This document shows, in pieces, positions 38,130 through 53,376 of a stretch of 64,000 nucleotides of DNA. Where the stretch lies: positions 620,001 to 684,000 of the forward strand of contig NC_089441.1 in NCBI RefSeq assembly GCF_026210795.1, written 5' to 3'. Made by a program: the position numbers and the translations under genes. The stretch comes from Rhizophagus irregularis (Eukaryota; Glomeromycota; Glomeromycetes; Glomerales; Glomeraceae). The notes beneath the pieces are model-generated. The model saw nothing but the letters and a program-made list of their open reading frames with translations, searched no databases and was not told the origin of the DNA. Position 1 is the stretch's first letter. Each line of letters starts with the position of its first letter.

Positions 38130-38217
38130 TTTTACATAATTCTGATAATTTTAGCTTGTTTACTTTACTTAATATCACCTCTATTTGTAATATTTCCTCT
38201 TGAGTTTCCAATATTAA
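38119..38217 (-). pseudogene. Small retrotransposon ORF, 3' part
   Basis: Downstream half of the ORF interrupted at the ATTAA target. Its frame continues through ETQEEILQIEVILSKVNKL to a TAA at 38119-38121, which overlaps the start codon of the kinase-integrase ORF (ATG at 38127-38129). Confidence 0.7.
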
Positions 38218-38699
38218 GTCGTCGGGCTGGTAGTGTGTCTCGCTAGCGCTCACCCCACCTCGGCCATGGCCTCGCAGTACCTACATCCCCCCTCCGTGGG
38301 GGTAGGACTCCCCAAGATCCGTTACTATCCGTTACTACATCTGTTACTAAAAATATACTAAAAAACAGATAAAATAAGGGAAAAGAGAGGAAAATACGAT
38401 AGAATCGGAAGGGAGTAACAGATGTAACAGATGTAACAGATATTTCAGAAAGTTAGGAGAGGACACCCCCTCAGAAAAAAGTTTTGATTTTACCCCCCCA
38501 GATCTGTTACATTCGTTACGATCCGTTACTCTTTCAGGATTCCGTTCGTTTTCTCATTGGAGGCAATGAGATAGCAAACCAAGTTAACAGGTAGGTTAAT
38601 AGCCCCTAGAAGGACTGTAGAGCCGTAGAGATATAACCGGGTAGGAGCGCGGATCTTTGGAAAAAATACATTCGGCAATTGAAGATTAGGTAACTATAA
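38218..38699. repeat. Left terminal inverted repeat of the Polinton-like element
   Basis: Matches the complement of 52750-53230, with only a few differences seen (for example TGTGTCTC against TGTGTGTC near the tip). It holds GTTACATCTGTTAC-type repeated phrases: many copies of GTAACAGAT / ATCTGTTAC and CCGTTACTA, probably protein-binding sites. The inner end carries AATTGAAGAT. Confidence 0.95.
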
Positions 38700-38709
38700 G
38701 TAACATACA
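38677..38709 (+). promoter_or_regulatory. Putative Polinton promoter motif, left end
   Basis: AATTGAAGAT (38677-38686) followed by ATAAGTAACATA just before ATG 38710. The same order, TAATTGAAGATA then ATAAGTAACATA, precedes the gene starting at 47068 on the other strand. Confidence 0.6.
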
Positions 38710-39225
38710 ATGATAAACTTACACGCCGCCACTTCTCTTGCCGAAGACCTCGGGCTTGATCTTGTAGACATCTATGGAATCCGTAAATGGATCCAAATGC
38801 AGGCTTCGCCCCTCAACGACCCAGACATAGTGAGAGAGATGGTCAGAAACCTTCCGATCAAAGAATTCGGAAAACATCTCAAGATAAACAGACTCTGGTA
38901 TAACGGTTGTAAAGCCGAGTTGTGGAAGCGATATAAAGAAGCTGAGGAGGTATACAAACAGGCAGTAGACTACTACAGAGAGGCCATTGACAATTTCAAT
39001 GAAGCCGATCAGAAAAAATACACTAGGTTCGCAGGAATGGTGGCAGTAGAAAGAGCTCTCCTCAGATGTGGCTTTATAACGCAAGAGTCCGACTGGGAGA
39101 AATGGACTCAAATAACGTACAACATCCAATTGCTTAAGGAAGGCCACACTCTTGATGACTCGGACGATGAATCAGATGATGGAGAGGTATCTCTCGATGA
39201 CTCGGATGATGAGGAATACTTTTAG
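38710..39225 (+). CDS. Polinton-encoded 171-aa protein of unknown function
   Basis: Predicted mainly helical, with charged repeats (ELWKRYKEAEEVYKQAVDYY) like a coiled coil or TPR-like hairpin, and a very acidic C-terminus (two DDSDDE repeats). No Cys or membrane motif. It is the first gene inside the left repeat and starts 24 bp after the promoter-like motif. Acidic tails are common in DNA-mimic or chaperone-like viral proteins, but no function is assigned. It converges on the zinc-ribbon gene 9 bp away. Confidence 0.75.
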   Translation: MINLHAATSLAEDLGLDLVDIYGIRKWIQMQASPLNDPDIVREMVRNLPIKEFGKHLKINRLWYNGCKAELWKRYKEAEEVYKQAVDYYREAIDNFNEADQKKYTRFAGMVAVERALLRCGFITQESDWEKWTQITYNIQLLKEGHTLDDSDDESDDGEVSLDDSDDEEYF

Positions 39226-39234
39226 AAGGCGGTA

Positions 39235-39555
39235 CTAATCCGTCTTCCTCTTTTTTGCTTCCTTAAGGCATTTATCAATACACTGTTTACACGCGTCATC
39301 AGCCTCTAAAATTTTTTGCCCAAGTTTTTTGCATTGCCGATTATACACCGTTTGATGTCTTTTAGCCGCGGTTTCTTTTTTCTTCTCCTTGGTTTTCTTT
39401 TTGATAACCCAGTCTATCCCAGTAAAAGTATTCTTATGCATACCACAAACTGTGCAATCACCATGCAGCCGGTAACGCCCATTTGTGGTCATATCTTGTA
39501 TTTCACTAGAAGTCTCGGTTTCCTTCTTACACTTTAGGCAGTAAAATCGTGTCAT
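39235..39555 (-). CDS. Small zinc-ribbon protein (DUF5679-like), 106 aa
   Basis: Starts MTRFYCLKCKKETET. The CxxC of CLKC and CTVC, with NGRYRLHGDC between, resembles the small virus-associated zinc ribbon DUF5679 (YCxKCx...NGRxxxxGxCxxCGxK). A Lys-rich helix and a CKQC segment follow. The frame stays open upstream to 39873, but that would run antisense through the integrase start, so I chose the internal ATG. Only 44 bp separate this ATG from the divergent integrase ATG, so the two genes share a promoter region. Nucleic-acid binding is likely; role unknown. Confidence 0.7.
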   Translation of the reverse strand: MTRFYCLKCKKETETSSEIQDMTTNGRYRLHGDCTVCGMHKNTFTGIDWVIKKKTKEKKKETAAKRHQTVYNRQCKKLGQKILEADDACKQCIDKCLKEAKKRKTD

Positions 39556-39599
39556 CTTAAGATTTGAAGTCCGAAATCTTTCCTTTAATTTGTCGTAAT

Positions 39600-40691
39600 A
39601 TGTCGCATTTAGAGAATTATTACAAATACTACAATCTCTCCGGAGTACCAGCACGAATTCTAAAAGGTGAGGAGCACTACAACCTATACAAAAAGCCCCT
39701 AAAGGAAAAGTCATCAGAGCGTCCACGAGTAGTTGTATGGAAACCAAATGCGACGCATCAGGCAGATCTCGCAGAGATGCCAGTCGACCCCAAAGGATTC
39801 CACTATTTCCTCGTAGTGGTGGAAATCGCGGGTAAACGAGTCGACGCAGAACCCCTAAAGGATAAAACTGCAAATAAGGTTCTCAATGGATTCGTTAAAA
39901 TCTACAGAAGAAATCACATTAAGCCACCAACACATCGAATAGAGACAGACTCCGGATCAGAATTCACCAATGATCAGGTACGTGATTTTTTCCTGAACAG
40001 CCTAGGGGTGATGATGAGGTTTGGAGAGCCGGGAAGACACAAACAGCAATCATACGCTGAACGAGCTATCCAAGCTATTCAAGAACCTCTCCTAAAACGA
40101 ATGGTGGCACAGGAGTTGAAGACCGGGGTGACATCTGTAGAATGGTCAGAAGATTTCCGTGATGTAGTTAATAAAATAGATAAACTCTGGCAAAGAAATC
40201 CCCCAGACATTCCGACTGGGTCACCCAAAGTGTCAAAAAAGACGGAACTTCTTTCTGAAGGAATGCGTGTCCGAGTCAAGTTAGATGAACCTATTTCAGT
40301 ACTCGGGAATAAACTCCATGGAAAATTTCGTACAGGTGACATAAGATGGAATCCCAATATCCGTGTCATCAAAAAAATGATCCTCTCACCCGAACAGCCT
40401 CCTACGTATCTTCTTGATGGACCACACGGGCGTCTAGGTGTATCCAGATGTGCGTACACCCGAAAAGAGTTGCAAATTGTTCCAGAAAATGAACATCCCC
40501 CACCTGGCTCCGTGATAAGAGGGCAACCCGAAAGATTTGTACCTGAGCGGATACTCCGGCATCGCATCAGGAAGGGTCAAGACCAGTATCTAGTCAAGTG
40601 GGAACGATACCCAGATACCGAAGCCACTTGGGAACCTGCTGACCGGTTGGAGGAGGATGTCCCTGCCTTAATCCGCAAGTTTTGGGAATAA
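39600..40691 (+). CDS. Polinton integrase with C-terminal chromodomain
   Basis: 363 aa from the second ATG. An earlier in-frame ATG at 39564 would add 12 residues. The retroviral-type (RVE) catalytic triad is visible: Asp in HQADLAEM (near 55), Asp in ETDSGSEF (near 117) and Glu in YAERAIQ (near 154), with 36 residues between the last two. The C-terminus is a chromodomain (VPERILRHRI, then YLVKWERYPDTEATWEP). It cuts and joins DNA ends and could target chromatin marks. It is unlike the retrotransposon integrase at 36348 in lacking the HHCC finger. An AATAAA lies just after the stop, and the retropepsin-like gene converges 14 bp away. Confidence 0.93.
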   Translation: MSHLENYYKYYNLSGVPARILKGEEHYNLYKKPLKEKSSERPRVVVWKPNATHQADLAEMPVDPKGFHYFLVVVEIAGKRVDAEPLKDKTANKVLNGFVKIYRRNHIKPPTHRIETDSGSEFTNDQVRDFFLNSLGVMMRFGEPGRHKQQSYAERAIQAIQEPLLKRMVAQELKTGVTSVEWSEDFRDVVNKIDKLWQRNPPDIPTGSPKVSKKTELLSEGMRVRVKLDEPISVLGNKLHGKFRTGDIRWNPNIRVIKKMILSPEQPPTYLLDGPHGRLGVSRCAYTRKELQIVPENEHPPPGSVIRGQPERFVPERILRHRIRKGQDQYLVKWERYPDTEATWEPADRLEEDVPALIRKFWE

Positions 40692-40705
40692 AAAATAAAT
40701 ATTCC

Positions 40706-41464
40706 CTATTTTTTGTCTCCTCGATTCACGTCAGAAACTATCGGGATAAAAACATTCTTCTCATTACAAGTAAGGGCGATATGTTCACGTGATTCATGGA
40801 CATCATAATTGTAACGTTTCAGACACGTCCGGCTCAATCCAATCTCCCTATGCTTGTAATCGCTTAAAACCGCGAGATTCTCAGTGATTACACAATCAGG
40901 GGTTAGTTTGATTGACACACCTTTTACCATGCCGAATGTCCTACCAGATCCTGGAGCACCGGATATGTTATGTGTAATACTCTTGTCGATATCCAACCCT
41001 AATTCTTCAGCAGCTTCTCTCTGAATAAAAGACGCGTTAGCACAAGTGTCTGCTAAACACTGAATTGCTATCCCATTGACCTTCCCATCCAGCGCTAAAA
41101 GATCTTTAGTATTCTCCAAACGAGCTATGTCAATATCCATCGGGTCATCTTCCCTGATATCCTCCTTACGGTCTTCTTGTTTTTCCTCAACTAGGTCTTC
41201 CGGAATCTCCGTACTTTTACGAGCAGACTTTAATTCTTCCCGAAGAATCTCGCGGAGTAATTTTCTAAAATCTGCAGACCTTAATAAACTTAATGAATCA
41301 TTTTTGGTGACGGCTTTTATAAGTGTGGGCTTACTACTAGTAACCTTCACAGGAATCTTAATAGGAGTTATTTTAACCGATTTTTTTGGAACAGATTTAA
41401 GAAGTTTCGAGATACTTACACCCTTATCCGAGTTTACTTTTTTTTTGTACTTCGAACCGCACAA
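40706..41464 (-). CDS. Retropepsin-like aspartic protease, -1 frame after gag
   Basis: 252 aa if read from its own ATG (MCGSKYKKK). The first half is basic and disordered. Around residue 140, after GIAIQCL, comes ADTCANASFI, which fits the retroviral/Ty3-type aspartic protease site, but with Cys where DTG or DTS has Gly or Ser. A later EIGLSRTCL resembles the second conserved ILG block. It overlaps the gag-like ORF by 31 nt in the -1 frame at an A9 run. It is not followed by reverse transcriptase. It may process the gag-like protein, or it may be a non-catalytic domain if the Cys is disabling. Confidence 0.72.
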   Translation of the reverse strand: MCGSKYKKKVNSDKGVSISKLLKSVPKKSVKITPIKIPVKVTSSKPTLIKAVTKNDSLSLLRSADFRKLLREILREELKSARKSTEIPEDLVEEKQEDRKEDIREDDPMDIDIARLENTKDLLALDGKVNGIAIQCLADTCANASFIQREAAEELGLDIDKSITHNISGAPGSGRTFGMVKGVSIKLTPDCVITENLAVLSDYKHREIGLSRTCLKRYNYDVHESREHIALTCNEKNVFIPIVSDVNRGDKK

Positions 41465-42930
41465 ATCCGAAAACCACCTTCCTCATCGGGAACAATTTTC
41501 AAGTCATCAAAACTCACAGTATCAATGTCCATAGCATCATCATTAAGATCGAGGTTTCTCATTGCTCGGGCTAATTCCAGATCATCGCGTCTATCTTTAG
41601 CCTTCTGAAGTCTCTTTGGAAATCTTTTAGACGTCTCATATCCCATAATAAGATCAATAACATGTTGATCATCCTCACTAGTCCATTCAGGAACATCAGG
41701 GTCACCAGGGTCATCACCAAAATCATGATCTACATAACCATCATCCCAATCAGGATCCTGATGATCCTGAACGACACGTCTCTGTGGTTTTGGTCGAACA
41801 GGTTTAATCTGTTGTCTATAGACCGGTGGTTTACGAACTGGCTTAGATGCTTGTAATTGTTTAAATTGTGCCTGGAAATTCTTGGTAAGTTCCTCGGCTT
41901 GTGCCTTGAGCAATTCTTGTAATCGTTCTTGAGTAATAACGTCTGTCGACCTTTGTATTACAGCACCTTCGTGTGGAGTCACGGGATGAGTATAGCCAGC
42001 CAATTCCTCTTTTTTAGCCTTTTCAATACCCTGACGCCTTTGTAATCCATAGAACATTTCGCCCTTTCGTCGTTCAAGATCACTCAATCTATCGATTAAT
42101 GTATTAAGAGGCGCCGCCCCGATTCTGGAAGCTTCAATAACGTTTTCCGGCAAAAGTCCTCTATAGAACTGGTCAGTAACCATGATTTGATTATATCCTA
42201 CAATACCCCCAGCCCTCTCAACTCGCTTATAGTAAGATCGAACAGGTTCACCTTGTTCCTGGTAAAGGTTACTAAATCGTATTTGAAGTCTTTCTTCCAC
42301 GACGGTTGGAAAATTTGTGCGCATATGCATAAATGCTTGATCCAGGAGAATCCCCTGTAAGACTATCGGTTGATTCTGGGCAGCAGCATTGAATGGACCT
42401 CCATGATCTCCCAACCCATTAACGGGTAGATGAGTAGGACGTCCGCCCGCACGCCTCCACTGCTCTTCAACTTTAAAATTCGATCTAACGATATCAGCGC
42501 GTGACGGGAAAAATGCGTCTCCAATAGTTACCGCCGCATTAGCCGCAACTAGAGAATATGCATGAGCAGCAGATCCAGGCACATAAGTATTAGGATGTAG
42601 TCGTCCAGCACCAACATTTTCAGGAACAACCAAAGCTCTGAATGCTCGGCGAGTAGCACCGGCTCTACCATTTGCAGCAGCTACTAACCGAATATTCGAG
42701 AGTTCCCAATTTTTTCCAGTAAGTTCTGCATCAAACCACCTCGCCGCTTCATCTCTCATACAGCTACGAAGAACCCCCATCGCTCGCACTCGACCAGGAG
42801 GCGCACCGGCATCGTCCAATGGATCAATACCAACGGTATTAATATACCCTAAAAAGTTATCAATAAAAAGATTAAGATCTTCATCTTCCCGACCATGAAA
42901 TATGGGGGCAGCTATACCAACGGCAGCCAT
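41434..42930 (-). CDS. Gag-like structural protein in a Polinton-like element
   Basis: 498 aa. The N-terminus PIFHGREDEDLNLFIDNFLG and then SCMRDEAARWFDAELTGKNW matches the Ty3/Gypsy-type gag layout, like the gag of the host retrotransposon at 55429 (PQFYGREEEDINDWVRQF...AAAQWYNEKKE). Later LQIRFSNLYQEQGEPVRSYYKRV resembles the second gag helix block. The C-terminus is acidic and has no CCHC zinc knuckle. It overlaps the coiled-coil ORF upstream by 19 nt and the protease-like ORF downstream by 31 nt. Gag self-assembles into a shell in retroelements; here it is the only capsid candidate. It is far diverged from the retrotransposon gag, so it is not recent leakage from the host element. Confidence 0.82.
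   Translation of the reverse strand: MAAVGIAAPIFHGREDEDLNLFIDNFLGYINTVGIDPLDDAGAPPGRVRAMGVLRSCMRDEAARWFDAELTGKNWELSNIRLVAAANGRAGATRRAFRALVVPENVGAGRLHPNTYVPGSAAHAYSLVAANAAVTIGDAFFPSRADIVRSNFKVEEQWRRAGGRPTHLPVNGLGDHGGPFNAAAQNQPIVLQGILLDQAFMHMRTNFPTVVEERLQIRFSNLYQEQGEPVRSYYKRVERAGGIVGYNQIMVTDQFYRGLLPENVIEASRIGAAPLNTLIDRLSDLERRKGEMFYGLQRRQGIEKAKKEELAGYTHPVTPHEGAVIQRSTDVITQERLQELLKAQAEELTKNFQAQFKQLQASKPVRKPPVYRQQIKPVRPKPQRRVVQDHQDPDWDDGYVDHDFGDDPGDPDVPEWTSEDDQHVIDLIMGYETSKRFPKRLQKAKDRRDDLELARAMRNLDLNDDAMDIDTVSFDDLKIVPDEEGGFRICAVRSTKKK
41436..41452 (-). promoter_or_regulatory. Candidate -1 ribosomal frameshift site (A9 run before the gag stop)
   Basis: On the minus strand the gag frame ends ACA AAA AAA AAG TAA. 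This includes A-AAA-AAA in the X-XXY-YYZ register used for -1 frameshifting. Slipping back one base enters the protease-like frame. Simple reinitiation at the overlapping ATG is an alternative. Confidence 0.55.
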
Positions 42931-43616
42931 ATCGTATTTTGTGGATGGTTGAGAGGAGGTGGAGGAGGGTTCAATTGTCTAATCCGAAACCATTGTACTT
43001 GGATACGCAGAGCGGCTATTTGTTGGAAAAATCGATTCCTAAGACGTCCCAATGTCCGAATTCCAAAAAGAACCCGATTATTGGCATATACAAGCCGATT
43101 TCGTGCCGCATCACGCTCGCCTATAGCTCTATTACGTTCACCTATAGCTCTATTACGTTCTCCTCTCATAAGATTATATTGCTGCTGAAGTCGACGATTA
43201 GTCGTCCGCATACCACCAAACTCACGTTCCAATTCAGCCAAATTAGCTTCTAAACCAGTAATAGTATCTTGTACGATATTTAGCTCATCTTGTGTAAGAC
43301 CTAACAAACCTGTTTGAACCTCGAGTTCGTCTTGTAATTCATCGCGTTCTTTTCGAGATCGATCGCGTTCCGCTTTTAATATATCACGTTCTTCGTATGT
43401 TTCTCTACAGCGATGAATTAATAAATTAAGAGCATGTTTAAGACGATGGTTTGCATTTTGTACATCTCGATTAACAACCATGCGATCACTGACAGTTAAA
43501 AAATCTGTTAGATCCTTAATTACCGCAACTAATGGTATATTATTCATATCACGCGAATCCCTAGGAGGCGGTCCAGTAGGCTCTGAAGGAGTATAAATTG
43601 CAATTGGTGTCGACAT
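42912..43616 (-). CDS. Polinton-encoded coiled-coil protein, 234 aa
   Basis: Residues about 60-200 are a long coiled coil rich in Arg, Glu and Leu, with internal repeats (two consecutive RNRAIGE units). The N-terminus is Pro-rich and the C-terminus PNPPPPPLNHPQNTIW is a proline patch. It ends inside the start of the gag-like ORF (19-nt overlap, different frame), so the two are probably translated from one transcript. The 31-bp gap to the divergent ATPase ATG is the shared promoter. A scaffold or spike-like structural role is possible but unproven. Confidence 0.75.
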   Translation of the reverse strand: MSTPIAIYTPSEPTGPPPRDSRDMNNIPLVAVIKDLTDFLTVSDRMVVNRDVQNANHRLKHALNLLIHRCRETYEERDILKAERDRSRKERDELQDELEVQTGLLGLTQDELNIVQDTITGLEANLAELEREFGGMRTTNRRLQQQYNLMRGERNRAIGERNRAIGERDAARNRLVYANNRVLFGIRTLGRLRNRFFQQIAALRIQVQWFRIRQLNPPPPPLNHPQNTIWLPLV

Positions 43617-43647
43617 CGTATTTAAACTAAATTAGAATAAAATTCAA
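43617..43647. promoter_or_regulatory. 31-bp divergent promoter region
   Basis: Only 31 bp, AT-rich with TTTAAACTAAATTAG, separate the ATG of the coiled-coil gene (-) from that of the ATPase gene (+). The AATTGAAGAT-type motif seen elsewhere in the element is not obvious here. Confidence 0.45.
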
Positions 43648-44871
43648 ATGGATCTTTATGTATACAATTTGGACGAGTACACGACCGACTCGAGACAGGG
43701 TAATGAGTTTGCCCCATCATGGCCTTTCCGTCTTGCCGTAGCAGGAAGTTCTGACTCGGGTAAAACAACTATGATCATTAATTTGTTAATGGGAGACAAG
43801 AAGGCAAAGGAGGATGGCGAAAGGTACATATTATGTGATGCGGTAATTCTAGTTGGCAGATACCTCGATGAACCGAAGTGGGCAGTCGTACGTGATTTTT
43901 TCAAAGAAGAAGAAATTCCGTTTACCGCAGTATCCCATAGTGAGATTCCAAATGTTAAGGACTTCGACCCTACCCAGGCAACTGTGGTAATCTTCGAGGA
44001 TTTGATGGATGCGCCTAAAAAAACCCAGGATCTCATCACTGGATTTTTTACACACGGGCGTCACAAAAATATCTCGTGTATCTATGTGGCCCAAAGATTC
44101 TTTACCATTCCCAAGGCTATTCGTGAAAATGTGAATTATATTTCCCTACATGGAGGTCACGGAAGTTTGACAGATACTAAGAGGATCATTCGCCAGTATA
44201 CAGAAGAATCAGAGTCACTAGCTCCAGTAATTGACGACCTTACTCTACAACGCGAATTTATAGTATTTGATCTTAGAAGATCTAAGAGCGATCCGTTATC
44301 TATTCGGGTTAGATGGGATACTAGTCTCAGTTCGATCACCGATCAATCTCAGTTCGATCCTAGTTCAATCTCAGTTCAATCCCCGTTCGATCCGAGTTTG
44401 AACCCAGTTCGATCCCTGTTCGATCCAAGTTTGAACCCAGTTCGATCGAAGTTTAGTCCTTATGGCCAGAAAGCCGTAGCTGAAGCAAAAAAGTCCTCCC
44501 AGCTAATCGAGTTTGCTCGGGAATATCCGTCGCCTAAAGAGAGAAAACACCTTCTCATATCTGGTGTTATAGCTAAGAACGCAGATACCTGGATTAAGTA
44601 CGTCTTTCGGGAAGCCTACGGACTATCTGGTAAAACCCTGGGATCAGACTTCCAAAACTTCTTAGCGAAAGTACGGGATAGGACCACGAAGACTGAAATT
44701 CCAAAACCTGAGACCGTAAAGGAGTTATTCTCCCGATATGAAGTCCTGAAGTCTAGTCACCCTTTGGATAATAAAAAAATAATAGAAGGCATCGGGGTCC
44801 TTTTACAGATCTTTTCTAAGGGTCATATGGACCGTCGAGCATTACGAGTAGGGATCAATAGTATTTTGTAA
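43648..44871 (+). CDS. FtsK/HerA-type genome-packaging ATPase (A32-like)
   Basis: 407 aa. Walker A GSSDSGKTTMIINL near residue 33, Walker B VVIFEDLMDA near 115, and a Gln in YVAQRFFTIPKAIREN near 148 match the packaging ATPases of Polintons and nucleocytoplasmic large DNA viruses. In those viruses they pump DNA into capsids. After the ATPase fold (about 220 aa) comes a tandem repeat of FDPSLNPVRS-like units (about 230-270), then an extra basic helical domain of about 130 residues with no recognised family. Presence of this gene implies DNA packaging, although no jelly-roll capsid gene is found. Confidence 0.9.
   Translation: MDLYVYNLDEYTTDSRQGNEFAPSWPFRLAVAGSSDSGKTTMIINLLMGDKKAKEDGERYILCDAVILVGRYLDEPKWAVVRDFFKEEEIPFTAVSHSEIPNVKDFDPTQATVVIFEDLMDAPKKTQDLITGFFTHGRHKNISCIYVAQRFFTIPKAIRENVNYISLHGGHGSLTDTKRIIRQYTEESESLAPVIDDLTLQREFIVFDLRRSKSDPLSIRVRWDTSLSSITDQSQFDPSSISVQSPFDPSLNPVRSLFDPSLNPVRSKFSPYGQKAVAEAKKSSQLIEFAREYPSPKERKHLLISGVIAKNADTWIKYVFREAYGLSGKTLGSDFQNFLAKVRDRTTKTEIPKPETVKELFSRYEVLKSSHPLDNKKIIEGIGVLLQIFSKGHMDRRALRVGINSIL
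44330..44460 (+). repeat. Tandem repeat inside the ATPase gene
   Basis: TTCGATCC followed by (A/C)AGTTYRA recurs about six times over 130 bp. It encodes repeated FDPS and NPVRS units. Units differ by small indels in multiples of three, so the frame stays open. It probably forms a flexible linker between the ATPase domain and the C-terminal domain. Confidence 0.75.
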
Positions 44872-44884
44872 GAATCTGGTTGCT

Positions 44885-45436
44885 TTAGCAACCCATCTCG
44901 CGAAGTTCTTTCGCAGAAGCCCTAAGAATCATGGCGCTTTTTTTACGTCCTTCGAAGTCAATCCGTAGCATCCTAGCTTTTAACCCAATAGCTCCTAAGG
45001 CTCGAGAAGCAAAGTTCTTAGTCATCGGATTACTTACATGACTTACATAGTTCTCATAGAATGTAGTAAAGGGTTCGTCAATACCATCCGGGTATGTATT
45101 CCGTAAGAACTGATATAAGGCAATTTCCCCACTGTCACATCCAATGGCTATAAGCTGTTCAAGAAGCCACTTCCTAGTATCCTCGTATGAATCTCCGTCC
45201 ATAATTTTCATATCCAGTCTTTGTGTGAATAATTGCGTAAAATCTGCATTACTTGCCCGACGGATAATCTGGACCAACTTATCCCTGGCAAGTCCCAAGG
45301 CTTGTAAAGGTTCACTCTCGTCGCCAATCTTTTTTATAATCTGTCTATACAACACGCTGGATAATCCTCTATATGCTGCTTTTGCAGAGAATACTCCACA
45401 GTTCTGACACTGGTTTATTACGATTGATGTTGACAT
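44885..45436 (-). CDS. Polinton-encoded 183-aa protein of unknown function
   Basis: Helical throughout. An N-terminal CQNCG pair (residues 10-14), then LDMKIMDGDSYEDTRKWLLE and a basic C-terminal helix (RALGAIGLKARMLRIDFEGRKK). No membrane span. It converges on the ATPase gene (13-bp gap). Its upstream motif ATTTAAAGAT (45499-45508) is a variant of the shared promoter-like motif. Not recognised. Confidence 0.7.
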   Translation of the reverse strand: MSTSIVINQCQNCGVFSAKAAYRGLSSVLYRQIIKKIGDESEPLQALGLARDKLVQIIRRASNADFTQLFTQRLDMKIMDGDSYEDTRKWLLEQLIAIGCDSGEIALYQFLRNTYPDGIDEPFTTFYENYVSHVSNPMTKNFASRALGAIGLKARMLRIDFEGRKKSAMILRASAKELREMGC

Positions 45437-45589
45437 GGCTATCTTTCTTTGATTATTCGCTCACTTAGTATCCTTCACAATCTTTTTTATATATTGTTAT
45501 CTTTAAATACCTGTCATTTGTAGAAAAAAAAAATAACTGGCATTAAGGGATCAACCGTTGGAAAGACCGGAGGACCGGAGGACTGACCA

Positions 45590-46174
45590 TTAGGAAGCGC
45601 AGTCCTTGCACAACTTGTCCGTTAAGTCACTTGGGCTTACAGGCATGAGACATTCCCTACACAACTCAATATTAAGCTCTGCAAGTCTCGGGGCATGGTC
45701 CTCCAAAGTTCGTGGACGACCGGAAGGACCGGAGGAAGGTGTCCCGTTAGTCGTATCCTGCTGTAAGATAAAATCATCATATTCATCTTGGTCAGCCTGA
45801 ATAGCGGCCCTGATTTGTTGTATATCATTGAAAGTTAACCGCTGGCCATCAAGATTTTCCTCATTATAGCGTGTTTCATTGATGATTTCCTCTATAAGCT
45901 CCTCCTCTTCAGAATGAACAAGGTAGTAGTCCTCGACTACCTCGTAGTCACTCTCAACCAGTCTATGATACGTTCTAGTACCGTGTTGAATATAGCGTCC
46001 TGTATCTGTATTTAAATATACAGGTTGTTCCTGGTGTGGAGGCGGTGCGGTTTGTCTACGGACAAGCCTTCCATCGATATAATCATGGGATTCCATAACT
46101 ATTCGATTAAAGGTATCTCCACCAACACGGATTGGACGTCCGGTTATAGGATTAGTTATATAAGTGTAAGACAT
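45590..46174 (-). CDS. Polinton-encoded protein with two NPxTGRxI-type repeats, 194 aa
   Basis: Two similar segments lie in the N-terminal half: ITNPITGRPIRVGGDTFNRI and YLNTDTGRYIQHGTRTYHRL. They recall the NP-TGR-I core of the 2-cysteine adaptor domain found in large DNA virus proteins, though the cysteines are missing. An acidic middle follows, then CRECLMPVSPSDLTDKLCKDC at the C-terminus, a probable treble-clef or ribbon zinc site. The motif AATTGAAGAT lies 37 bp upstream (46211-46220). Function unknown; an adaptor or virion role is a guess. Confidence 0.7.
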   Translation of the reverse strand: MSYTYITNPITGRPIRVGGDTFNRIVMESHDYIDGRLVRRQTAPPPHQEQPVYLNTDTGRYIQHGTRTYHRLVESDYEVVEDYYLVHSEEEELIEEIINETRYNEENLDGQRLTFNDIQQIRAAIQADQDEYDDFILQQDTTNGTPSSGPSGRPRTLEDHAPRLAELNIELCRECLMPVSPSDLTDKLCKDCAS

Positions 46175-46220
46175 GTCTTTTTTCTGTACGTGTCTACATA
46201 CCTAATTGTTATCTTCAATT

Positions 46221-46669
46221 TACAATAACCAAGTAACATTGTCATCAGTCCTTGTCATGAAACACGAGGATACCTGATGATGAGGTTACATAGTCATCAG
46301 TCCTTGTCGCGAAACACGAGGATACCTGATAAATAAGTTACTGGGTTATTGGCCTAGAATGCATTCATGGAAAAACTATGGATTATATTACAGAAAATGT
46401 GAACGGAGTTCATGTCACGTGATACCCTGAACAAATGTGTAGAGTGTCACGTGATTTCATGCGGTACGTAGATCATTTCCTGTTTGGGCGATACCCGTTC
46501 CACAAAAATCGATTTTGGTAAAAATGCGTTTGGAATCTTGTGTAACATAAATTTCCTTTTTCGGTAATTCTGGATTACGCGGTAATGCCGGCCGGATCTA
46601 AAAAATATGACTCTGCAGGGTAATTCCTACGAAAGTCAAGTATAAAATGCTTACTCCTGTTGAGTCCAT
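46221..46669. promoter_or_regulatory. Central intergenic region of the Polinton-like element, with duplicated hairpin unit
   Basis: The longest gap in the element. A unit of about 53 bp is duplicated (about 46240-46330): CATCAGTCCTTGTC, then GAAACACGAGGATACCTGAT. Each copy can fold, because ATCAG pairs with CTGAT, and CCTTGT nearly with ACGAGG. Two CACGTGAT sites follow at 46415-46422 and 46446-46453. There is no ORF. It could be a regulatory hub or replication-related site. Confidence 0.55.
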
Positions 46670-47068
46670 TCATACCAGTCCCCAAGGATCGCCTCCCCAT
46701 CTTTGTTCACTTAATGCATGCTCTATGGTTTCCCTCTCTTGGGGGTCCACGACCATCCCATTCCTAAGCATTTTCTCCATAATATAAAGCTGATCCTCGG
46801 TAAGGCAGTCTATCAATCTTTTATAGAGGTCGTGTACATCTTCAAACGTTATCCAGTCAATATTCCCTTCTCCATACTGATCTCCGAGAGCTCGGATTTC
46901 CCAGTATATATCCCGGAGTGTAGTGGCATAAAATTTCCACCTCTTATATGCCTCTTGACGAACTTCCTGCCACCACACTCTATCTACCTTACTCACTGCA
47001 ATAAGGTCAGTATCCGGGATCTTTGCGACAATGCGTTCGACTATTTCTACTGGTAATCGGTCCAACAT
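46670..47068 (-). CDS. Polinton-encoded F-box-like protein, 132 aa
   Basis: The first 50 residues fit an F-box: LDRLPVEIVERIVAKIPDTDLIAVSKVDRVWWQEV (LP-E-...-I...-L-VS-V-R-W), given here by its key residues. The remainder is helical without LRR or WD repeats. F-box proteins bind Skp1 and redirect ubiquitin ligases. Viral and element-borne versions can turn over host proteins, but no target is known. The upstream region has TAATTGAAGATA (about 47095-47104) and ATAAGTAACATA. It was probably captured from the host's large F-box family, although its base composition matches the element. Confidence 0.72.
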   Translation of the reverse strand: MLDRLPVEIVERIVAKIPDTDLIAVSKVDRVWWQEVRQEAYKRWKFYATTLRDIYWEIRALGDQYGEGNIDWITFEDVHDLYKRLIDCLTEDQLYIMEKMLRNGMVVDPQERETIEHALSEQRWGGDPWGLV

Positions 47069-47177
47069 GATATTATGTTACTTATACTATAGCTATCTTC
47101 AATTACTGTATGCCTATTACACATGGATAAAAAATATAGACTAAATTCGTACAGGATCATAGGACCACAGGGGCCGC

Positions 47178-47648
47178 TTATGCAAGAAGTTCTATTAAGG
47201 TTTTCTCAGCCTCATTTTTAGTAATAGCTCGCTTTGGGGGACCGGTTGATGAGTCCTTAGTCGCATTATAATACAATTCGAAGAGGGCCTCAAGCTTATC
47301 TAGGAGAGCTTGTTTATTTTTATATGATTCGTGGATTTTTGCTATCTTAGCAGTATATGCTGCATTATCTGGGAAGAGTTTTCTGGCCACGAACTTCACA
47401 TATGATACAGGGGAATTTGCCGTCTGGATTCGCTTGATATACTTCACGTGGTCCTGGACGAGGTAACTGGTTTTGCTAAACCCAGATACTAATGCGACTA
47501 CTATAGTATCTTTTAATGCGCGGATAATTTTGGGGACAGTTTCGTCAGAGACAACATTAGGCTGAATGCGCGATGCCTCGTAAATAACCTCCTCACTAGT
47601 GCTGTCAGTGCTGTTAATAATGCTTGCGAATTCGGTATATGTTGACAT
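47178..47648 (-). CDS. Polinton-encoded 156-aa protein of unknown function
   Basis: All-helical and Lys-rich, with no Cys and no membrane segment. Landmarks are VPKIIRALKDTIVVALVSGF and VKFVARKLFPDNAAYTAKI. The motif AACTGAAGAT (47677-47686) lies 29 bp upstream. Not recognised. Confidence 0.68.
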   Translation of the reverse strand: MSTYTEFASIINSTDSTSEEVIYEASRIQPNVVSDETVPKIIRALKDTIVVALVSGFSKTSYLVQDHVKYIKRIQTANSPVSYVKFVARKLFPDNAAYTAKIAKIHESYKNKQALLDKLEALFELYYNATKDSSTGPPKRAITKNEAEKTLIELLA

Positions 47649-47730
47649 GATTCTTTGTACTTTGTAAAAAATATAAATCTTCAGTTACCTGTTCATTCGA
47701 ATGAGAAAAAATAAGTATGAACCTCAGGGT

Positions 47731-48264
47731 TTACACTTGGGATACTGCAAGGCGGTAGAAGCGTTGCTCGGCCTTTTGCATCAATGGAGAGCCTGGTCTA
47801 TACAACCAGGGGATAGCGACTTTCTGGATAATCCTAGCCGCTTTATTGTTCCTTCTTTCTATATATCTCCTAAAGGCATTCTGGATCATTTCAGCATGAT
47901 GAGTATAATAGTCGAAATTAAAATGCTTTGGGCAACTATATAAATGTAGTCGTACCGCTTGATCCATGGAAGCGTCGGCTCCCCATCCGCGATCAATAAA
48001 AGATTTACAGTAGGTACAGTACCACCTATTTGGTAGTCGTGATACTATTCTCCTAATGTGCACAATATAAGCATATACAGCTTGACGAGACCTTGGATAA
48101 GGTGGCCGCTTATAACCTATTCTACTACAAGTATCATAATATTGCACAGCATTCTGAATGCGCCTAGCCCACGTGTGGAAACTTTCGTCGTCTTGTCTAC
48201 CTAATCCGTCGGTGTTTTGCATTTGGGTATCTCGTAAGATTACATATCCCATAGGTTTATTCAA
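47731..48264 (-). CDS. Polinton-encoded zinc-finger protein with IQ-like helix, 177 aa
   Basis: The middle has WYCTYCKSFIDRGWGADASM, then a His and Cys (HLYSCPKHF), so a CCHC-like zinc finger is likely. The C-terminus has two IQ-type repeats (MIQNAFRRYIERR, ARIIQKVAIPWLYRPG). The final segment is short and hydrophobic. The stop at 47731 lies within 100 bp of the next gene's promoter motif. Function unknown; nucleic-acid or host-protein binding are both possible. Confidence 0.68.
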   Translation of the reverse strand: MNKPMGYVILRDTQMQNTDGLGRQDDESFHTWARRIQNAVQYYDTCSRIGYKRPPYPRSRQAVYAYIVHIRRIVSRLPNRWYCTYCKSFIDRGWGADASMDQAVRLHLYSCPKHFNFDYYTHHAEMIQNAFRRYIERRNNKAARIIQKVAIPWLYRPGSPLMQKAEQRFYRLAVSQV

Positions 48265-48315
48265 TTATGCCATCACGGTATGTCAGTAAAAAATACACAT
48301 ACCGGTCCCTAGCAA

Positions 48316-50169
48316 TCATGTCCAGATAACTTTGTTCGCATTTTTCACATGGCAGTATCCCGCGGTTTCAAACTTGAAAGTCTTTAGAGTCGTATCTGCA
48401 TTCTCTGAACAAGTGAAAAGCGCGGGGCTATCTGGCTGTTCTTCTAAAATAAATCCGTCTGTATGGATACGTCGTACTTTATCCTTGTATGGTTGAATTG
48501 CCTCAGATGTGATTTTGCGACCACGTGCTAATAAGAATGGGGCGATCCTGGGATACTCACCTTTGAAGGGATTACCCGGGTTTGTAAACTGGAATCGCCA
48601 CTGGTCGGATCCTACTGGTATGATAGAGTCGAGTGTATGGCCCTCTGGAAATGTAAATGGGTCTGTTTGATCTGTGGTGAGTGTCTTGTAATTACGCTTC
48701 CTCTGGCATAATGCTCCCCATAATGTGTTGAGGACTCGCTTTGCCACGCGGCCAGCTATGCCTCCCTGGTTTTTAATTTTGAAGAGGAAGTGTACATACT
48801 CACCGAATATTACAGTTCCAGGGATTCTCGCTTCTCTATCATATATCAATGCATTTGGCTTCCCATCCTGTATTAATTGTATATTGAGACCAAGTTTTTT
48901 TGCTCGTTGTAAGTCGATGAATGTATAGATTCCCCTTTTATTCTGTCGGAAGAGAATATTATTCCCACTTACTTTGGCATGGAATAATCCATACAAGGCA
49001 TAACCCCTGTGGTCGACAAAGTCATTAAGTGTCTGGAATTTACCCCGTCTGATTGGAAAGTTCGCGTTTGATTGCTGGATACTCGGGTATAAACTTGTTG
49101 CGTCGTACTGTCTTCCATAGCCCTTCCACTCGTTATCTGCCCAGATTAATCCTCCCATCATTGCATCACTTAACCACTCTGCTTCTATCGGGTCAAGAGG
49201 ATCATTGGCTGGAATCCCTACACTTAATCGTTCGAATAACCAGAGAGCCGTTCTTTTGTAAGACCAGTTATGGTATGATAAGTCGATTCCTAAACCGAAC
49301 TTCTTTGTAGTCTGTAAGAAGACATCCCGCTCCTCGTGGATTCTCTGATATGCTTCTTCAAGAGTTTCATATATTCCCGTTTTACGGTTCTTCTCGACGG
49401 GGATGAAAGAACTCTTGGAATTCTTAGTTTTTTGAAACTGCCCAATTGTGCAAGACTTAACCGTTTTGCCGTTGTATATTGTGACTACATTGTTTACTCC
49501 ATCTTCATGATACACAATGGGCAGATTACGCTTCCTATCTAATTTACTGGGGTGGAGTCTTCCGGGATTTAACGCGAGGGAGTAATGGCCTTCTGACAGG
49601 ATGAGAGTCGCACGTCTATCGGACTTACTCTTAGAGATTCGGGTAATGTCCCCCACGATATTAATTGCGAGACTTCCTGCGAGTTGTTCAACTTTGTCCA
49701 TGCATGAAACTGGGATGGGAGCATCGCGATTGAGACCTAATGCCTTTTTGATATACTCGGGCTTTTCGATTGACTTTGGCATTTTAGAGAATGTGCCGTA
49801 GATATATTTCAGGCATTCATACAGGCAATCATTTAGCTCCCCGTTGCAACCCCCTGCAACCGGTGGGGCATCTCTCACATAAATTATGAATCGTTCAAAA
49901 TAATCAGGGTCTGCGTCATCCGGTAGTTGTGCTTCGTCGTAGTGGTCCAAGAGTGAGAAGAGGCTGGTTGGTTGGTTTCCTGATGTCCATCCACCGGGTT
50001 TCCAGTTTTCATAGGGAAGTAGGATCTGGAACTTTCTATCTGGAAATCGCGCCTGGAGAGTCTGACCGAGTCTGGTGATAGCTCCTCTGGAAAAGCGGGC
50101 ACCAGAATATTGAAGTTCCTTGATGTCAGGTCGTGTTGGTAAAGTGCGGGCGATTCTTGAGTATTGCAT
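48316..50169 (-). CDS. Protein-primed-type family B DNA polymerase (pPolB)
   Basis: 617 aa. Motif A YDATSLYPSIQQ (near 356), motif B KRVLNTLWGALCQRK (near 478) and motif C HTDGF (near 570, keeping the second Asp of DTD) identify a family B polymerase of the Polinton/linear-plasmid type. It is much shorter than typical Polinton enzymes, which are often over 1000 aa, and I see no 3'-5' exonuclease motifs. Instead residues 100-230 hold NGELNDCLYECLKYI and GHYSLALN, a Cys/His pair reminiscent of an OTU-like or papain-like fold. It should replicate the element from a terminal protein. The upstream motif ATTTGAAGAC lies 18 bp before the ATG. Confidence 0.92.
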   Translation of the reverse strand: MQYSRIARTLPTRPDIKELQYSGARFSRGAITRLGQTLQARFPDRKFQILLPYENWKPGGWTSGNQPTSLFSLLDHYDEAQLPDDADPDYFERFIIYVRDAPPVAGGCNGELNDCLYECLKYIYGTFSKMPKSIEKPEYIKKALGLNRDAPIPVSCMDKVEQLAGSLAINIVGDITRISKSKSDRRATLILSEGHYSLALNPGRLHPSKLDRKRNLPIVYHEDGVNNVVTIYNGKTVKSCTIGQFQKTKNSKSSFIPVEKNRKTGIYETLEEAYQRIHEERDVFLQTTKKFGLGIDLSYHNWSYKRTALWLFERLSVGIPANDPLDPIEAEWLSDAMMGGLIWADNEWKGYGRQYDATSLYPSIQQSNANFPIRRGKFQTLNDFVDHRGYALYGLFHAKVSGNNILFRQNKRGIYTFIDLQRAKKLGLNIQLIQDGKPNALIYDREARIPGTVIFGEYVHFLFKIKNQGGIAGRVAKRVLNTLWGALCQRKRNYKTLTTDQTDPFTFPEGHTLDSIIPVGSDQWRFQFTNPGNPFKGEYPRIAPFLLARGRKITSEAIQPYKDKVRRIHTDGFILEEQPDSPALFTCSENADTTLKTFKFETAGYCHVKNANKVIWT

Positions 50170-50255
50170 TTTTATGTATATGATTTGTCTTCAAATATAA
50201 ATAATAACTTTCTATATATACGAAAAAAAAAAAAAGATATAATCTCAAATAGCGC

Positions 50256-52721
50256 TTACAATATGTCGTTGATAGCGCCCTCAGTATCCTCTTCGTTCCA
50301 GTCATTGATGATTCCATTGGCGGCCTCCCATTCACGTTCCATATCAGTTTTTGGACGTTCCTCGGGGATCTCTCGCGCTTTTCCCTTATCTGCCCTCATA
50401 GTTTCATACCCAGAGGGGGTGGGAATAATCTCGGCATTACGATTCTCCTTGCATGCTCTTATTAAATCCGCGAGTTCTTTACGGCTAGGTATTTTAGGTA
50501 AGTATCCATTATATTCAATCCAGTCCTTGAAGCGGTCTACTACTTCCCTAAGGTAGTACTGGTACTCGTCCTCAATACGTGTTGTGGGACATTCCTCTAC
50601 TTCAAACGCGAGTATTTCCCAGTCATAGTCATCTGACGCGTCTTGGTACTTGGCCCATAATTCCTTACCTGTATTGTAGAGATCATCGAAGGCCTGGTCC
50701 TTTGAATTTTTAACCCACGGTTTGCGATCCCATCGGTGCCTTTCGTGCCAGGCCCAGTGTGCTCGAGTACCTTCCTTTGGTTCAGGATCCTGGTCAACTT
50801 CTGGTTCTGTGTCGGGTTCTGGGATAAATTGCTTTTCAGGAGCCAGTTCTGGGTCAGGCTTAGTGACAGATACAGAAGATTCTGCGGGGGACTCGGGTTG
50901 TTGTTCAGAAGTTGGGTCCACGGTTATAGAATCCAAGTCTGATAACAAGTCGTCTAAGACGTCGTAGTTATCTGGCTCGGGGGTGGGTTCTTCTTGGTCA
51001 GGTTCCTCATCAGATAGATAACAGTCTGAAAAGTTATCTATAGGTTCATCGGGATCCGGTTGTTCTTCCCTTAACTCTTGTGGACGTTCTTTTAAGTGGT
51101 CAGGCTTGGGTGGAAGCAGTGGAGGAGCCTTGCGAATTACAGGTGCGGGTTTTTCCTCAGCGGGTTCGGGTTTTTTCTCGGCGGGTTTCTTTTGTACGTC
51201 TTGTGGATTATTAGCAGGAATGCTATATATATTTGCCAAGAACTTCTCTAAGGCTTTGGGATCAGATGCGGGTTTCTTAGAAGTCTCTACATCTATTCCT
51301 TCTATGTCTATCTCGTCTATTTCATGAATCCAGTTTTTTCCGAGGAATTTCTTGTAAAGGTCCTCCCTGGATATACTATAGACACGGGTCGGTTTCTTAT
51401 CTTTACGAACTAATTTGCTATTTATAGCCAACTCATTTGATAGGATTCTAGAAGCGTTTATCTTTGATAAGGGTGAAATACAATGAGTTTCGCAATATGA
51501 AGTATATACCCTATAAAATTCTTGAACAGGCAGGTCGATCATATAATTTTTCATTACGAGGTATGTGTCCTTTATAAATTGGAATAGCGGTGGAAGAGTC
51601 GAGATGATATGTTCCTGTTTGGATGTTGTCATAGGTGGCGGATTTCCATTGAAGTCCGGGTAAGCATCCGCGATGGCTCTCAAATAAGCATAGAATGCCT
51701 CACTAGCGCCTGGGTATTTCATAGCGTCACCGAGTTTTTTGAAGTAGTTGAGGTCCCCCTTGCGGGATGGTGACACATCCAAGAACACTGTGCGCCTATC
51801 ATCATTATCCACTCTGAGAGCATTTTCGTTGGTTAGGACGATAGTAGACATAAAGTTTTTATAATGTGTTGGTGTCTTGTATTTTTCATGGATTTCCATT
51901 ATGTCACTCGTTACCTTATCCTTTAAAGAGCGATACAGATTATTCCACTGGCTTTTTTCCGTGGGCATTTCCTCGAGAAGAAGAAGAATCTTACCCTGTA
52001 ATTGCCCATTGAAACTTCCACGAATCGTCTGAGGATCGCTGGTCTTATAGACGAGTTGAGTGCCTAGGACGCTGCGCTGAATGAAATCTGTTATAATGCC
52101 TTTGCCCCAACCCTGTCCAGATTTCAGGTAAAGGATCGAGTACATCTTCCTTCCAGCAGATACACCGGCCAACCACTTGATGATATACTCAGTGAGATTC
52201 CAATCACCCGAACACCAGATATCCTGAATGTGAGAGAAGATAAATTTAACCGCGAGGTGAATTGTAGACTTAAAGGTTGATATCGGACGTAAGACGTGGA
52301 GGAATCCTGGGAAGATATTTAGATAGAGTTGGCCGGTTAAGGATCTGAAGATTCGCTGTTTATGGGGATCACAGGTTGCATTACATACATCAGTATTCTC
52401 GACCATAAACCACTTGTAAATGTTGAACTCGGTCTTTTGAGAGGGTCCTTGTTCAGGTTGTGTGTAGAATGCCTTCGTGATTGGACGGATAAGTTTACCA
52501 ATATTTTTGTCAATAACGTGTTTCAAACTTTTACTATCCGGGTCCCACCAGAAAACCCCATGAGGATCTGCACAGGGAATGAAATAACTGCAAAGATACC
52601 TCTTGGCTTGATCGAGATCACTCATACTTTTAGCAGCGTTAATGAGTCGTTTAAGCTCATTGATACTGAAGGCTTTCTTTTGTTCACCGAACTTGGGGAT
52701 AACTTGAGCTTGAGCGGCCAT
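50256..52721 (-). CDS. Superfamily 3 (D5-like) helicase with Pro/Glu-rich tail
   Basis: 821 aa. Walker A YLKSGQGWGKGIITDF near 203, Walker B KILLLLEEMP near 249 and motif C TIVLTNE near 294 define an SF3 helicase; DDRRTVFLDV follows as the arginine-finger region. The N-terminal 180 residues have ADPHGVFWWDPDS and FNIYKWFMVENTD, which do not show a clear archaeo-eukaryotic primase signature. The last ~300 residues are low-complexity Pro/Glu/Asp. SF3 helicases occur in virophages, polinton-like viruses and large DNA viruses, whereas many canonical Polintons lack one. It unwinds DNA for replication. Its ATG lies 42 bp from the AATTGAAGAT motif in the right terminal repeat. Confidence 0.92.
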   Translation of the reverse strand: MAAQAQVIPKFGEQKKAFSINELKRLINAAKSMSDLDQAKRYLCSYFIPCADPHGVFWWDPDSKSLKHVIDKNIGKLIRPITKAFYTQPEQGPSQKTEFNIYKWFMVENTDVCNATCDPHKQRIFRSLTGQLYLNIFPGFLHVLRPISTFKSTIHLAVKFIFSHIQDIWCSGDWNLTEYIIKWLAGVSAGRKMYSILYLKSGQGWGKGIITDFIQRSVLGTQLVYKTSDPQTIRGSFNGQLQGKILLLLEEMPTEKSQWNNLYRSLKDKVTSDIMEIHEKYKTPTHYKNFMSTIVLTNENALRVDNDDRRTVFLDVSPSRKGDLNYFKKLGDAMKYPGASEAFYAYLRAIADAYPDFNGNPPPMTTSKQEHIISTLPPLFQFIKDTYLVMKNYMIDLPVQEFYRVYTSYCETHCISPLSKINASRILSNELAINSKLVRKDKKPTRVYSISREDLYKKFLGKNWIHEIDEIDIEGIDVETSKKPASDPKALEKFLANIYSIPANNPQDVQKKPAEKKPEPAEEKPAPVIRKAPPLLPPKPDHLKERPQELREEQPDPDEPIDNFSDCYLSDEEPDQEEPTPEPDNYDVLDDLLSDLDSITVDPTSEQQPESPAESSVSVTKPDPELAPEKQFIPEPDTEPEVDQDPEPKEGTRAHWAWHERHRWDRKPWVKNSKDQAFDDLYNTGKELWAKYQDASDDYDWEILAFEVEECPTTRIEDEYQYYLREVVDRFKDWIEYNGYLPKIPSRKELADLIRACKENRNAEIIPTPSGYETMRADKGKAREIPEERPKTDMEREWEAANGIINDWNEEDTEGAINDIL

Positions 52722-52749
52722 TTTTTGTTCTATTAAATCGAGTACTAAT

Positions 52750-53230
52750 TTATAGTTACCTAATCTTCAATTGCCGAATGTATTTTTTCCAAAGATCCGC
52801 GCTCCTACCCGGTTATATCTCTACGGCTCTACAGTCCTTCTAGGGGCTATTAACCTACCTGTTAACTTGGTTTGCTATCTCATTGCCTCCAATGAGAAAA
52901 CGAACGGAATCCTGAAAGAGTAACGGATCGTAACGAATGTAACAGATCTGGGGGGTAAAATCAAAACTTTTTTCTGAGGGGGTGTCCTCTCCTAACTTTC
53001 TGAAATATCTGTTACATCTGTTACATCTGTTACTCCCTTCCGATTCTATCGTATTTTCCTCTCTTTTCCCTTATTTTATCTGTTTTTTAGTATATTTTTA
53101 GTAACAGATGTAGTAACGGATAGTAACGGATCTTGGGGAGTCCTACCCCCACGGAGGGGGGATGTAGGTACTGCGAGGCCATGGCCGAGGTGGGGTGAGC
53201 GCTAGCGACACACACTACCAGCCCGACGAC
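52750..53230. repeat. Right terminal inverted repeat of the Polinton-like element
   Basis: Inverted copy of 38218-38699. Its inner end carries ATCTTCAATT (complement of AATTGAAGAT), 42 bp before the helicase ATG, so the repeat delivers the same putative promoter to genes reading inward from both ends. Confidence 0.95.
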
Positions 53231-53376
53231 ATTAATGGTCTTTCTTCACTATCTTCAAAATTTTTGGCTTTGAATTTATAGTTATAATTTATCCTGTTTA
53301 ATTCCTTTGTTATACCTTCTAAATTTTCGATTATATCCTTTATTTTATGATTTGTATTTCTTACCACTTGTTCCAT
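53231..53376 (-). pseudogene. Small retrotransposon ORF, 5' part, split by the Polinton-like insertion
   Basis: Starts at ATG 53376 and runs MEQVVRNTNHKIKDIIENL..., helical and charged, until the target site. The other half is 38119-38217. Counting the 5-bp duplication once, the two halves sum to 240 nt in one frame (79 aa plus stop), and the stop overlaps the ATG of the kinase-integrase ORF. This arithmetic supports a clean insertion into an intact ORF. Function unknown; possibly a coiled-coil linker or a separately translated accessory protein. Confidence 0.75.

Follow-up and report, generated by a model that had tools for sequence, protein, structure and literature searches.

In the evolution of many eukaryotic DNA viruses, Polintons stand close to the root; they are flanked by 6-bp target site duplications (TSDs) and have AG termini. 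Whether some of them are true transposons without a shell is debated, and Rhizophagus irregularis (= Glomus intraradices) is among the capsid-less cases named in a passage of PMC7805220, according to which its Polintons have no detectable capsid gene and such cases prompted the idea of capsid loss. Nine elements without a capsid gene, treated in a section of PMC4028283, were also without ATPase and protease. Maverick is named among the repeats of R. irregularis in passages of PMC8647823 and PMC11075540 that do not give its gene content. Here we analysed 64,000 nucleotides of the R. irregularis genome (NCBI RefSeq assembly GCF_026210795.1, contig NC_089441.1, positions 620,001 to 684,000 of the forward strand), called the window in the following. 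It contains at positions 38218-53230 a Polinton-like element of 15,013 bp with 482-bp terminal inverted repeats (TIRs) and a 5-bp target duplication, whose family probably represents the same elements as the 'capsid-less' Polintons of G. intraradices. The sequence analysis supports the view that a Ty3-type Gag and a retropepsin-like protein (PR) are fixed and constrained parts of this family. That Gag and protease replaced the jelly-roll shell and package the element DNA is in our opinion likely, with a probability of roughly 0.6. Among the matches listed in our literature search, which had subscription papers and most preprints outside its scope, there was no report of a Gag in a Polinton-like element.

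Gag and protease in the Polinton-like element

The original prediction had placed a protein-primed family B DNA polymerase (pPolB), a superfamily 3 (SF3) helicase, an A32-like packaging ATPase and a chromodomain integrase between inverted repeats of ~482 bp, and Pfam and repeat matches bore out the gene families and the repeats. It had also named a Ty3-type gag-like open reading frame (ORF) followed by a retropepsin-like ORF in the -1 frame, in agreement with the hhalign comparison, the Asp_protease_2 match and the 49-nt overlap of the two frames described below. Finally, a reverse transcriptase (RT) was said to be missing: Pfam indeed gave no RT or RNase H match in any of the 14 ORFs that fill the element, and the RT at 53416-54894 lies outside the TIR and is part of the Ty3 element into which the Polinton-like element is inserted.

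The Gag ORF (41434-42978, minus strand) is listed with 498 aa, counted from the ATG at 42930, or 514 aa, and alone it has no match in Pfam, PHROGs or NCBIfam. For profile-profile comparison, the window protein was combined with its homologues into an element Gag profile (87 sequences, 8 after redundancy filtering), and the Gag region of the adjacent Ty3 element was treated likewise to give a Ty3 Gag profile (44 sequences, PF03732 being present in 39 of the 44 proteins). The homologues listed were 120 of 187 for gag and 120 of 234 for the ATPase. Residues 2-69, corresponding to the N-terminal half of the Gag CA domain, were aligned by hhalign to the Ty3 profile with a probability of 93-96% and E-values of 2.8e-7 to 3.8e-9, and the score was ~55, while none of 60 column shuffles exceeded 21 and the reversed profile gave 15. 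Residues ~210-293 are colinear with the C-terminal half of the Ty3 Gag; a variable insert of ~120 aa (residues ~76-195) separates the two CA halves, and a tail follows. A profile led by the diverged clade E (see below) aligned both halves in order, the N-terminal half with 88.9% and E 2.4e-6. Among the 28 members of type B Gag (~54% identical), seven matched PF03732 with the C-terminal half, at E-values of 0.022-0.49 that do not reach the cut-off.

The PR ORF (40706-41482, minus strand; Asp_protease_2 at 40709-41482, E 2.9e-8) lies in the -1 frame relative to the Gag ORF, with which it shares 49 nt (stop to stop) at A AAA AAG TAA. The gag 3' end reads ACA AAA AAA AAG TAA, and the heptamer A AAA AAG within A9-G (41437-41443, minus strand), immediately 5' of the gag stop TAA, is a candidate -1 frameshift or slippage site, which we take to be of the textbook motif class. 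The A-run comprises 9 A in five of nine sequences. Many NCBI gene models fuse Gag to PR, apparently through predicted introns, and at two type B loci both are found in a single 737-aa frame. Probably a Gag-protease fusion is made, whether by frameshift, slippage, splicing or in-frame. The third position of the active-site motif varies (DTC in A/B, DPG in C, an apparent DSA in D/E) and the presumed active-site Asp is kept. Comparison of PR profiles connected C to A/B with 98.7% (E 1.9e-16) and D/E to C with 69.8% (E 4e-5).

Directly upstream of Gag, the ORF listing gives a coiled-coil-like ORF (42912-43631, minus strand), which is followed by the A32/FtsK-type packaging ATPase (43636-44871, plus strand; Pox_A32 at 43636-44868, E 2.9e-10). 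In an alignment of 46 ATPases, the Walker A motif GSSDSGKTT and the FEDL region are invariant or nearly so.

Four diverged loci in the same genome were read directly, two of them (L043 and L044, clade C1) reached via weak PR matches (28-29%) and two (L045, clade D, and L046, clade E) via ATPase matches. ATPase identity between clades A/B, C1, D and E is about 33-45%. In all four loci, an A32 ATPase and an rve-type integrase accompany a PR-like ORF and sequence of the coiled coil and of Gag. The latter two are united in a single ORF in L044 and L046, and the Gag frame is apparently broken in L043 and L045. A perfect C-x2-C-x4-H-x4-C knuckle is located between CA and PR in L045 and L046. These are the only two matches of the CCHC pattern in six frames of the element and the four loci, none being present in the window element, L043 and L044; in L046 the knuckle is in a different frame from the listed Gag ORF, just downstream of the Gag end. 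We regard the putative knuckle, located where the nucleocapsid domain should be, as the strongest sign for a Gag, and it is independent of the profile scores. The assignment of the 498-aa ORF as a predicted Ty3-type Gag holds, with a clear N-terminal and a marginal C-terminal half.

The proteins of the host assembly (146.7 Mb, 32 contigs) match R. irregularis DAOM 197198 with best identities of 95% and 100%. Searches of this assembly revealed at least 18 TIR pairs, the window included. One pair is only 3 kb apart (C6:1450872-1453909, two TIRs separated by 3.0 kb) and is perhaps a short internally deleted derivative. Nine of the 17 other pairs were read, and in all nine the sequence of all 14 ORFs was found in the same order, with some ORFs not intact; the longer copies (18-30 kb) contain secondary insertions. 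One copy is degenerate and mosaic (C26:1954018-1968931, L029-L030): its SF3 helicase and pPolB are ~34-57% identical to those of the window and parts of its Gag, PR and integrase >90%, which suggests recombination between subfamilies.

Genome-wide there are at least 89 matches for Gag, 106 for the ATPase, 151 for PR and 72 for pPolB. An ATPase is encoded on the opposite strand within 4 kb of 77 of the 86 merged gag loci, for which we estimate a chance expectation of about 0.5%, and none of the 101 merged A/B-type ATPase loci is without gag or PR within 15 kb. Among the 56 merged C/F-type gag loci, 53 are accompanied by an rve integrase that is encoded on the opposite strand no more than 4 kb away, and 19 by a non-A/B ATPase within 8 kb. 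Counted from the non-A/B ATPases, gag was found near 7/13 of C1, 7/22 of C2, 6/6 of C3, 0/11 of D, 0/8 of E and 0/7 others; the gag query is too distant for D and E, and both D/E loci read directly (one each) show Gag.

Pooled dN/dS values against seven non-degenerate copies were 0.10 for the integrase, 0.12 for PR, 0.15 for the ATPase, 0.16 for pPolB and 0.29 for Gag. Inside Gag (eight copies) the values were 0.12 for the N-terminal half, 0.54 for the insert, 0.11 for the C-terminal half and 0.19 for the tail, as expected for a protein that forms a lattice and exposes its variable part. Several copies carry stops, so that the element families are partly decayed and were recently under selection. 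The lineage is wider than this genome, because ATPase homologues were found on short metagenome contigs (many proteins among P0243-P0284, ~54-62% identical) and in Rhizophagus clarus (P0226, 63% identical). The window copy, which has nearly identical TIRs and for this reason is apparently young, would belong to an old diversified Polinton-like lineage of Rhizophagus.

Proposed packaging of the element DNA

According to our model, the linear element DNA would be copied by its own protein-primed-type polymerase together with the SF3 helicase and inserted by its own integrase, giving the 5-bp duplication; these roles are proposed because of the gene families. The structural module would be a coiled-coil/Gag/retropepsin cassette of Ty3 ancestry that replaced the jelly-roll capsid and the adenain-type protease of Polintons. 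Frameshift, splicing or in-frame fusion would link Gag to the protease and, in some clades, also to the coiled coil. Most likely Gag builds the shell, the protease would mature it and the retained A32 ATPase would load the element DNA into it. We infer that something, namely DNA, is packaged because the A32 ATPase is kept under strong selection, and we read Gag as the shell because this ATPase is kept and Gag is the only unassigned protein of capsid size. The original prediction that the gag-like protein may have taken the place of the capsid stands as far as Gag and retropepsin are fixed and constrained and neither jelly roll nor adenain is recognised, but assembly of the shell, its maturation and the element DNA as its cargo we infer. 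For the complete course of events, in which a lineage of DNA elements exchanged its jelly-roll capsid for a Gag-protease shell that is matured by retropepsin and loaded by A32 with linear double-stranded DNA (dsDNA), we see even chances.

Several observations weigh against the packaging of DNA by Gag. To our knowledge, A32 ATPases otherwise occur with jelly-roll shells, and their pairing with a Gag lattice has no known precedent. The element Gag profile is shallow (Neff 1.6) and its C-terminal half alone is marginal (3.5%, E 0.012, score 22 against 21 for the best shuffle); with the profile led by clade E this half reached only 2.5% (E 0.019), and the Gag ORFs of L044, L045 and L046 gave no match to PF03732 at E up to 5. 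The PR of the window element has D-T-C instead of D-T/S-G, and this departure makes its predicted catalysis unsure. The A/B PR is only weakly related to the Ty3 PR (8.6%, E 0.004), the direct comparison of D/E and A/B PR gave 0.2%, so that the link runs via clade C, and in the Pfam scan L044 reached E 0.021 and the D/E PR ORFs had no match. The A-run has 8 A in four of the nine sequences, which either would break the -1 relation or would be an assembly error. Full-length stop-free gag matches are only 27 of 89 (a count of rows), many copies carrying stops, and five of the 86 gag loci are without an ATPase within 15 kb. Gag was found within 8 kb of only 20 of the 67 ATPase rows picked as non-A/B, four of which are A/B fragments.

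If Gag and protease are a selected part of the element without forming a DNA shell, the element would move only inside the genome, and Gag could serve, for example, as a nucleoprotein scaffold in cytoplasm or nucleus, as a tether for chromatin or nuclear import, as an RNA carrier or as a poison of co-resident Ty3 particles. Such a role would fit the insertion of the window copy itself in a Ty3 element, the RNA-type CCHC knuckle retained at the D/E loci and the 34 of 56 C/F-type gag loci that have an integrase and no ATPase detectable by the queries used, the latter also being a point against Gag as DNA shell. It leaves unexplained why the A32 ATPase is constrained beside Gag in A/B elements and why both CA halves are constrained around a variable insert, and we consider it unlikely. 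Even less probable is that Gag and protease are a recent passenger, i.e. a Ty3 fragment in one copy or a misread ORF, which we give hardly any chance: the window copy has Ty3 sequence on both flanks, but gag-PR is present in 9/9 other same-TIR copies read and in the four diverged loci, the 86 merged gag loci are mostly tied to an ATPase, and gag and PR are under purifying selection. A chance or local Ty3 passenger is thus refuted by copy survey, co-location and purifying selection.

A conventional jelly-roll shell would have to be built from a very diverged capsid encoded by a small ORF or be provided in trans by a virus or a different element. Capsids missing from other Polintons, e.g. those of Trichomonas, were later found in very diverged form according to a passage of PMC10120064, and for R. 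irregularis strain 4401 a section of PMC10640383 describes an endogenous region with relationship to Asfarviridae. No capsid family was matched in the 14 ORFs with Pfam, nor in the 10 of 14 ORFs covered with PHROGs and the 10 of 14 with NCBIfam; this includes the major and the minor jelly-roll capsids, and PDB sequence searches with element proteins gave no capsid match either. The original prediction had put all remaining ORFs except the gag-like one under 240 aa. The PR ORF, with 258 aa from stop to stop, exceeds this size, but no unassigned ORF is longer than 240 aa and no gap between ORFs longer than 468 bp. A double jelly roll needs more space than either offers, so that a full-length capsid of this kind hidden in the element is ruled out. 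For the minor capsid, crude propensities leave the ORF o177 possible: its Chou-Fasman value (Pa-Pb -0.056, against -0.057 for the PRD1 penton) would be compatible with a beta-rich protein, and these values discriminate small ORFs poorly from jelly-roll controls. Altogether, we regard a jelly-roll shell as rather improbable.

A genome search with PF04451 had no match, but its controls were equally silent, so that it carries no weight. Viral-contig scans found no relative of the element and the packaging ATPase had no match in the phage collection. No Ulp1/adenain-type cysteine protease was matched by Pfam in the 14 ORFs, the retropepsin-like protein being present instead. The best PDB sequence match of PR was 7efy_A, a 'UBA domain-containing protein' (E 0.047), and the neighbouring Ty3 Gag matched nucleocapsid knuckles in the PDB sequence search.

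A Gag-protease module in place of the capsid may explain the packaging of the long-known 'capsid-less' elements, and its presence in the capsid slot makes the question of shell-less Polintons directly testable. If Gag packages the element DNA, retroelements and DNA viruses can exchange capsids, and nature provides a Gag-based carrier for dsDNA of about 15 kb. Such an exchange would be a first link between Bamfordvirae-type DNA elements and reverse-transcribing elements at the level of their structural modules, and in this one fungal genome the Gag shell would have persisted across five or more diverged ATPase clades (A/B, C1, C3, D, E).

Termini, insertion site and further genes

Repeat search and genome match located the left TIR, 482 bp with the terminus 5'-GTCGTCGGGC, at 38218-38699 (plus strand) and the right TIR at 52750-53230 (minus strand), and the 482-bp TIR has a full-length match at both element ends. 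The outer 281 nt of the two arms (38218-38498/52950-53230) are 100% identical and the inner parts (38476-38699/52750-52973) 97%, ungapped; the element termini are GTCGTC. Flank comparison revealed the TSD ATTAA on the left (38213-38217) and on the right (53231-53235). The insertion point is located between the RT ORF and the kinase-integrase ORF of a Ty3 element, which is present on both flanks, and G+C changes from ~0.3 outside to 0.41-0.43 inside the Polinton-like element. The latter Ty3 ORF (36351-38150, minus strand) joins a P-loop kinase-like domain to an H2C2 and rve integrase; the kinase-like domain matched AAA_28 and Thymidylate_kin, both below cut-off.

Exact 5-bp TSDs were found in five of the nine copies examined (window, C1_6803, C11_788, C26_1954 and C15_4189), and no exact TSD in C15_390, C28_2112 and both C23 copies. 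The two C23 copies (C23:2947750-2963055 and C23:3175562-3190614, L025-L028) are in opposite orientation, each without its own TSD, and they seem to have exchanged flanks (GTTTA/TAAAC and TCGGA/TCCGA), which would fit an inversion of the intervening ~210 kb by recombination of one copy with the other.

Left of PR, the element encodes the ORF o173 with an acidic C-terminus (38704-39225, plus strand; sequence in 9/9 other copies read, dN/dS 0.11 in seven copies), a DUF5679-domain ORF (39235-39882, minus strand; Pfam E 1.7e-17), which is partly antisense to the integrase ORF, and the rve integrase with a C-terminal chromodomain (39561-40691, plus strand; Pfam matches at 39561-40688, chromo 9.1e-18 and rve 9.8e-9). 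Right of the ATPase, all ORFs are on the minus strand: o191 (44885-45460, dN/dS 0.16), o203 (45590-46201) with a weak match to the 2-cysteine adaptor domain of large DNA viruses (Pfam E 0.001, below cut-off), o135 (46670-47077), o168 (47178-47684, dN/dS 0.20) and o177 (47731-48264, dN/dS 0.51). They are followed by the family B DNA polymerase (48316-50190, 624 aa) and the SF3/D5-like helicase (50256-52766; DUF5906 at 50259-52766, 1.2e-17, P4-type primase C-terminal; dN/dS 0.27). The DNA_pol_B_2 match of the polymerase (48319-50190, 7.7e-6) is with 25.5 bits slightly below the 25.8-bit cut-off, and the predicted protein-primed type is assigned by genomic context.

The ORF o135 has a weak Pfam F-box match and is fast evolving, its pooled dN/dS of 0.84 being near neutral. 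Against three copies its dN/dS is over 1, and similar-looking ORFs were seen by eye at L045:7744-8250 and L046:7445-7951; perhaps it is a host-interaction protein. In L043-L046, a conserved small ORF or domain (CRYIFEDLL...LDGYNEEL..FE) was observed beside the integrase of C, D and E elements, which, judged by eye, has a nuclease-like appearance. A large ORF beside a clade C element (L043:3-2579) resembles, also by eye, a Helitron replicase.

Comparison with known systems

The element resembles Polintons/Mavericks in its TIRs, family B polymerase, rve integrase, packaging ATPase and size of about 15 kb. It differs from the typical Polinton in the termini GTCGTC and in the TSDs, all those found being 5 bp instead of 6 bp. 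Polinton-type integrases without an N-terminal zinc finger have been described (PMC2836005, in part of the text), and the element integrase is similar, with rve and no Pfam match to Integrase_H2C2. For the G. intraradices Polintons, the passage of PMC7805220 records no more than the missing capsid gene; the structural module found here consists of Gag and retropepsin. Compared with the nine capsid-less elements in the section of PMC4028283 it retains the ATPase.

Like Polinton-like viruses (PLVs) and mavirus-type virophages, it is a small DNA element that integrates and encodes a pPolB, an S3H helicase, an ATPase and an rve integrase. For integrated PLVs, TSDs of 5-7 bp are reported in a passage of PMC7805220. 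The pPolB of mavirus has lost most of its exonuclease domain, as stated in a section of PMC11071308, and the short element polymerase can be set beside it by length only. In contrast to PLVs and virophages, neither a jelly-roll major or minor capsid nor a Ulp1-family protease was recognised in the element.

The likeness to Ty3/Gypsy elements (Metaviridae) comprises the Gag CA, a putative CCHC knuckle (L045, L046), the chromodomain integrase, the 5-bp TSD and, behind a poly-A run and shifted to the -1 frame, the retropepsin-like protein. Unlike Ty3/Gypsy, the element has no RT or RNase H, TIRs instead of long terminal repeats (its terminal repeats are inverted, and a separate direct-repeat search was not made), a ~120-aa insert within CA and an integrase encoded by its own gene on the other strand; in addition it has a DNA polymerase, a helicase and a packaging ATPase. 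Finally, it is similar to transpovirons and other elements that have lost their structural module; the relevant section of PMC11071308 describes them as mobile DNA that has related replication genes but lacks a jelly-roll shell. Unlike transpovirons, however, the element of R. irregularis retains a packaging ATPase and carries a foreign structural module.

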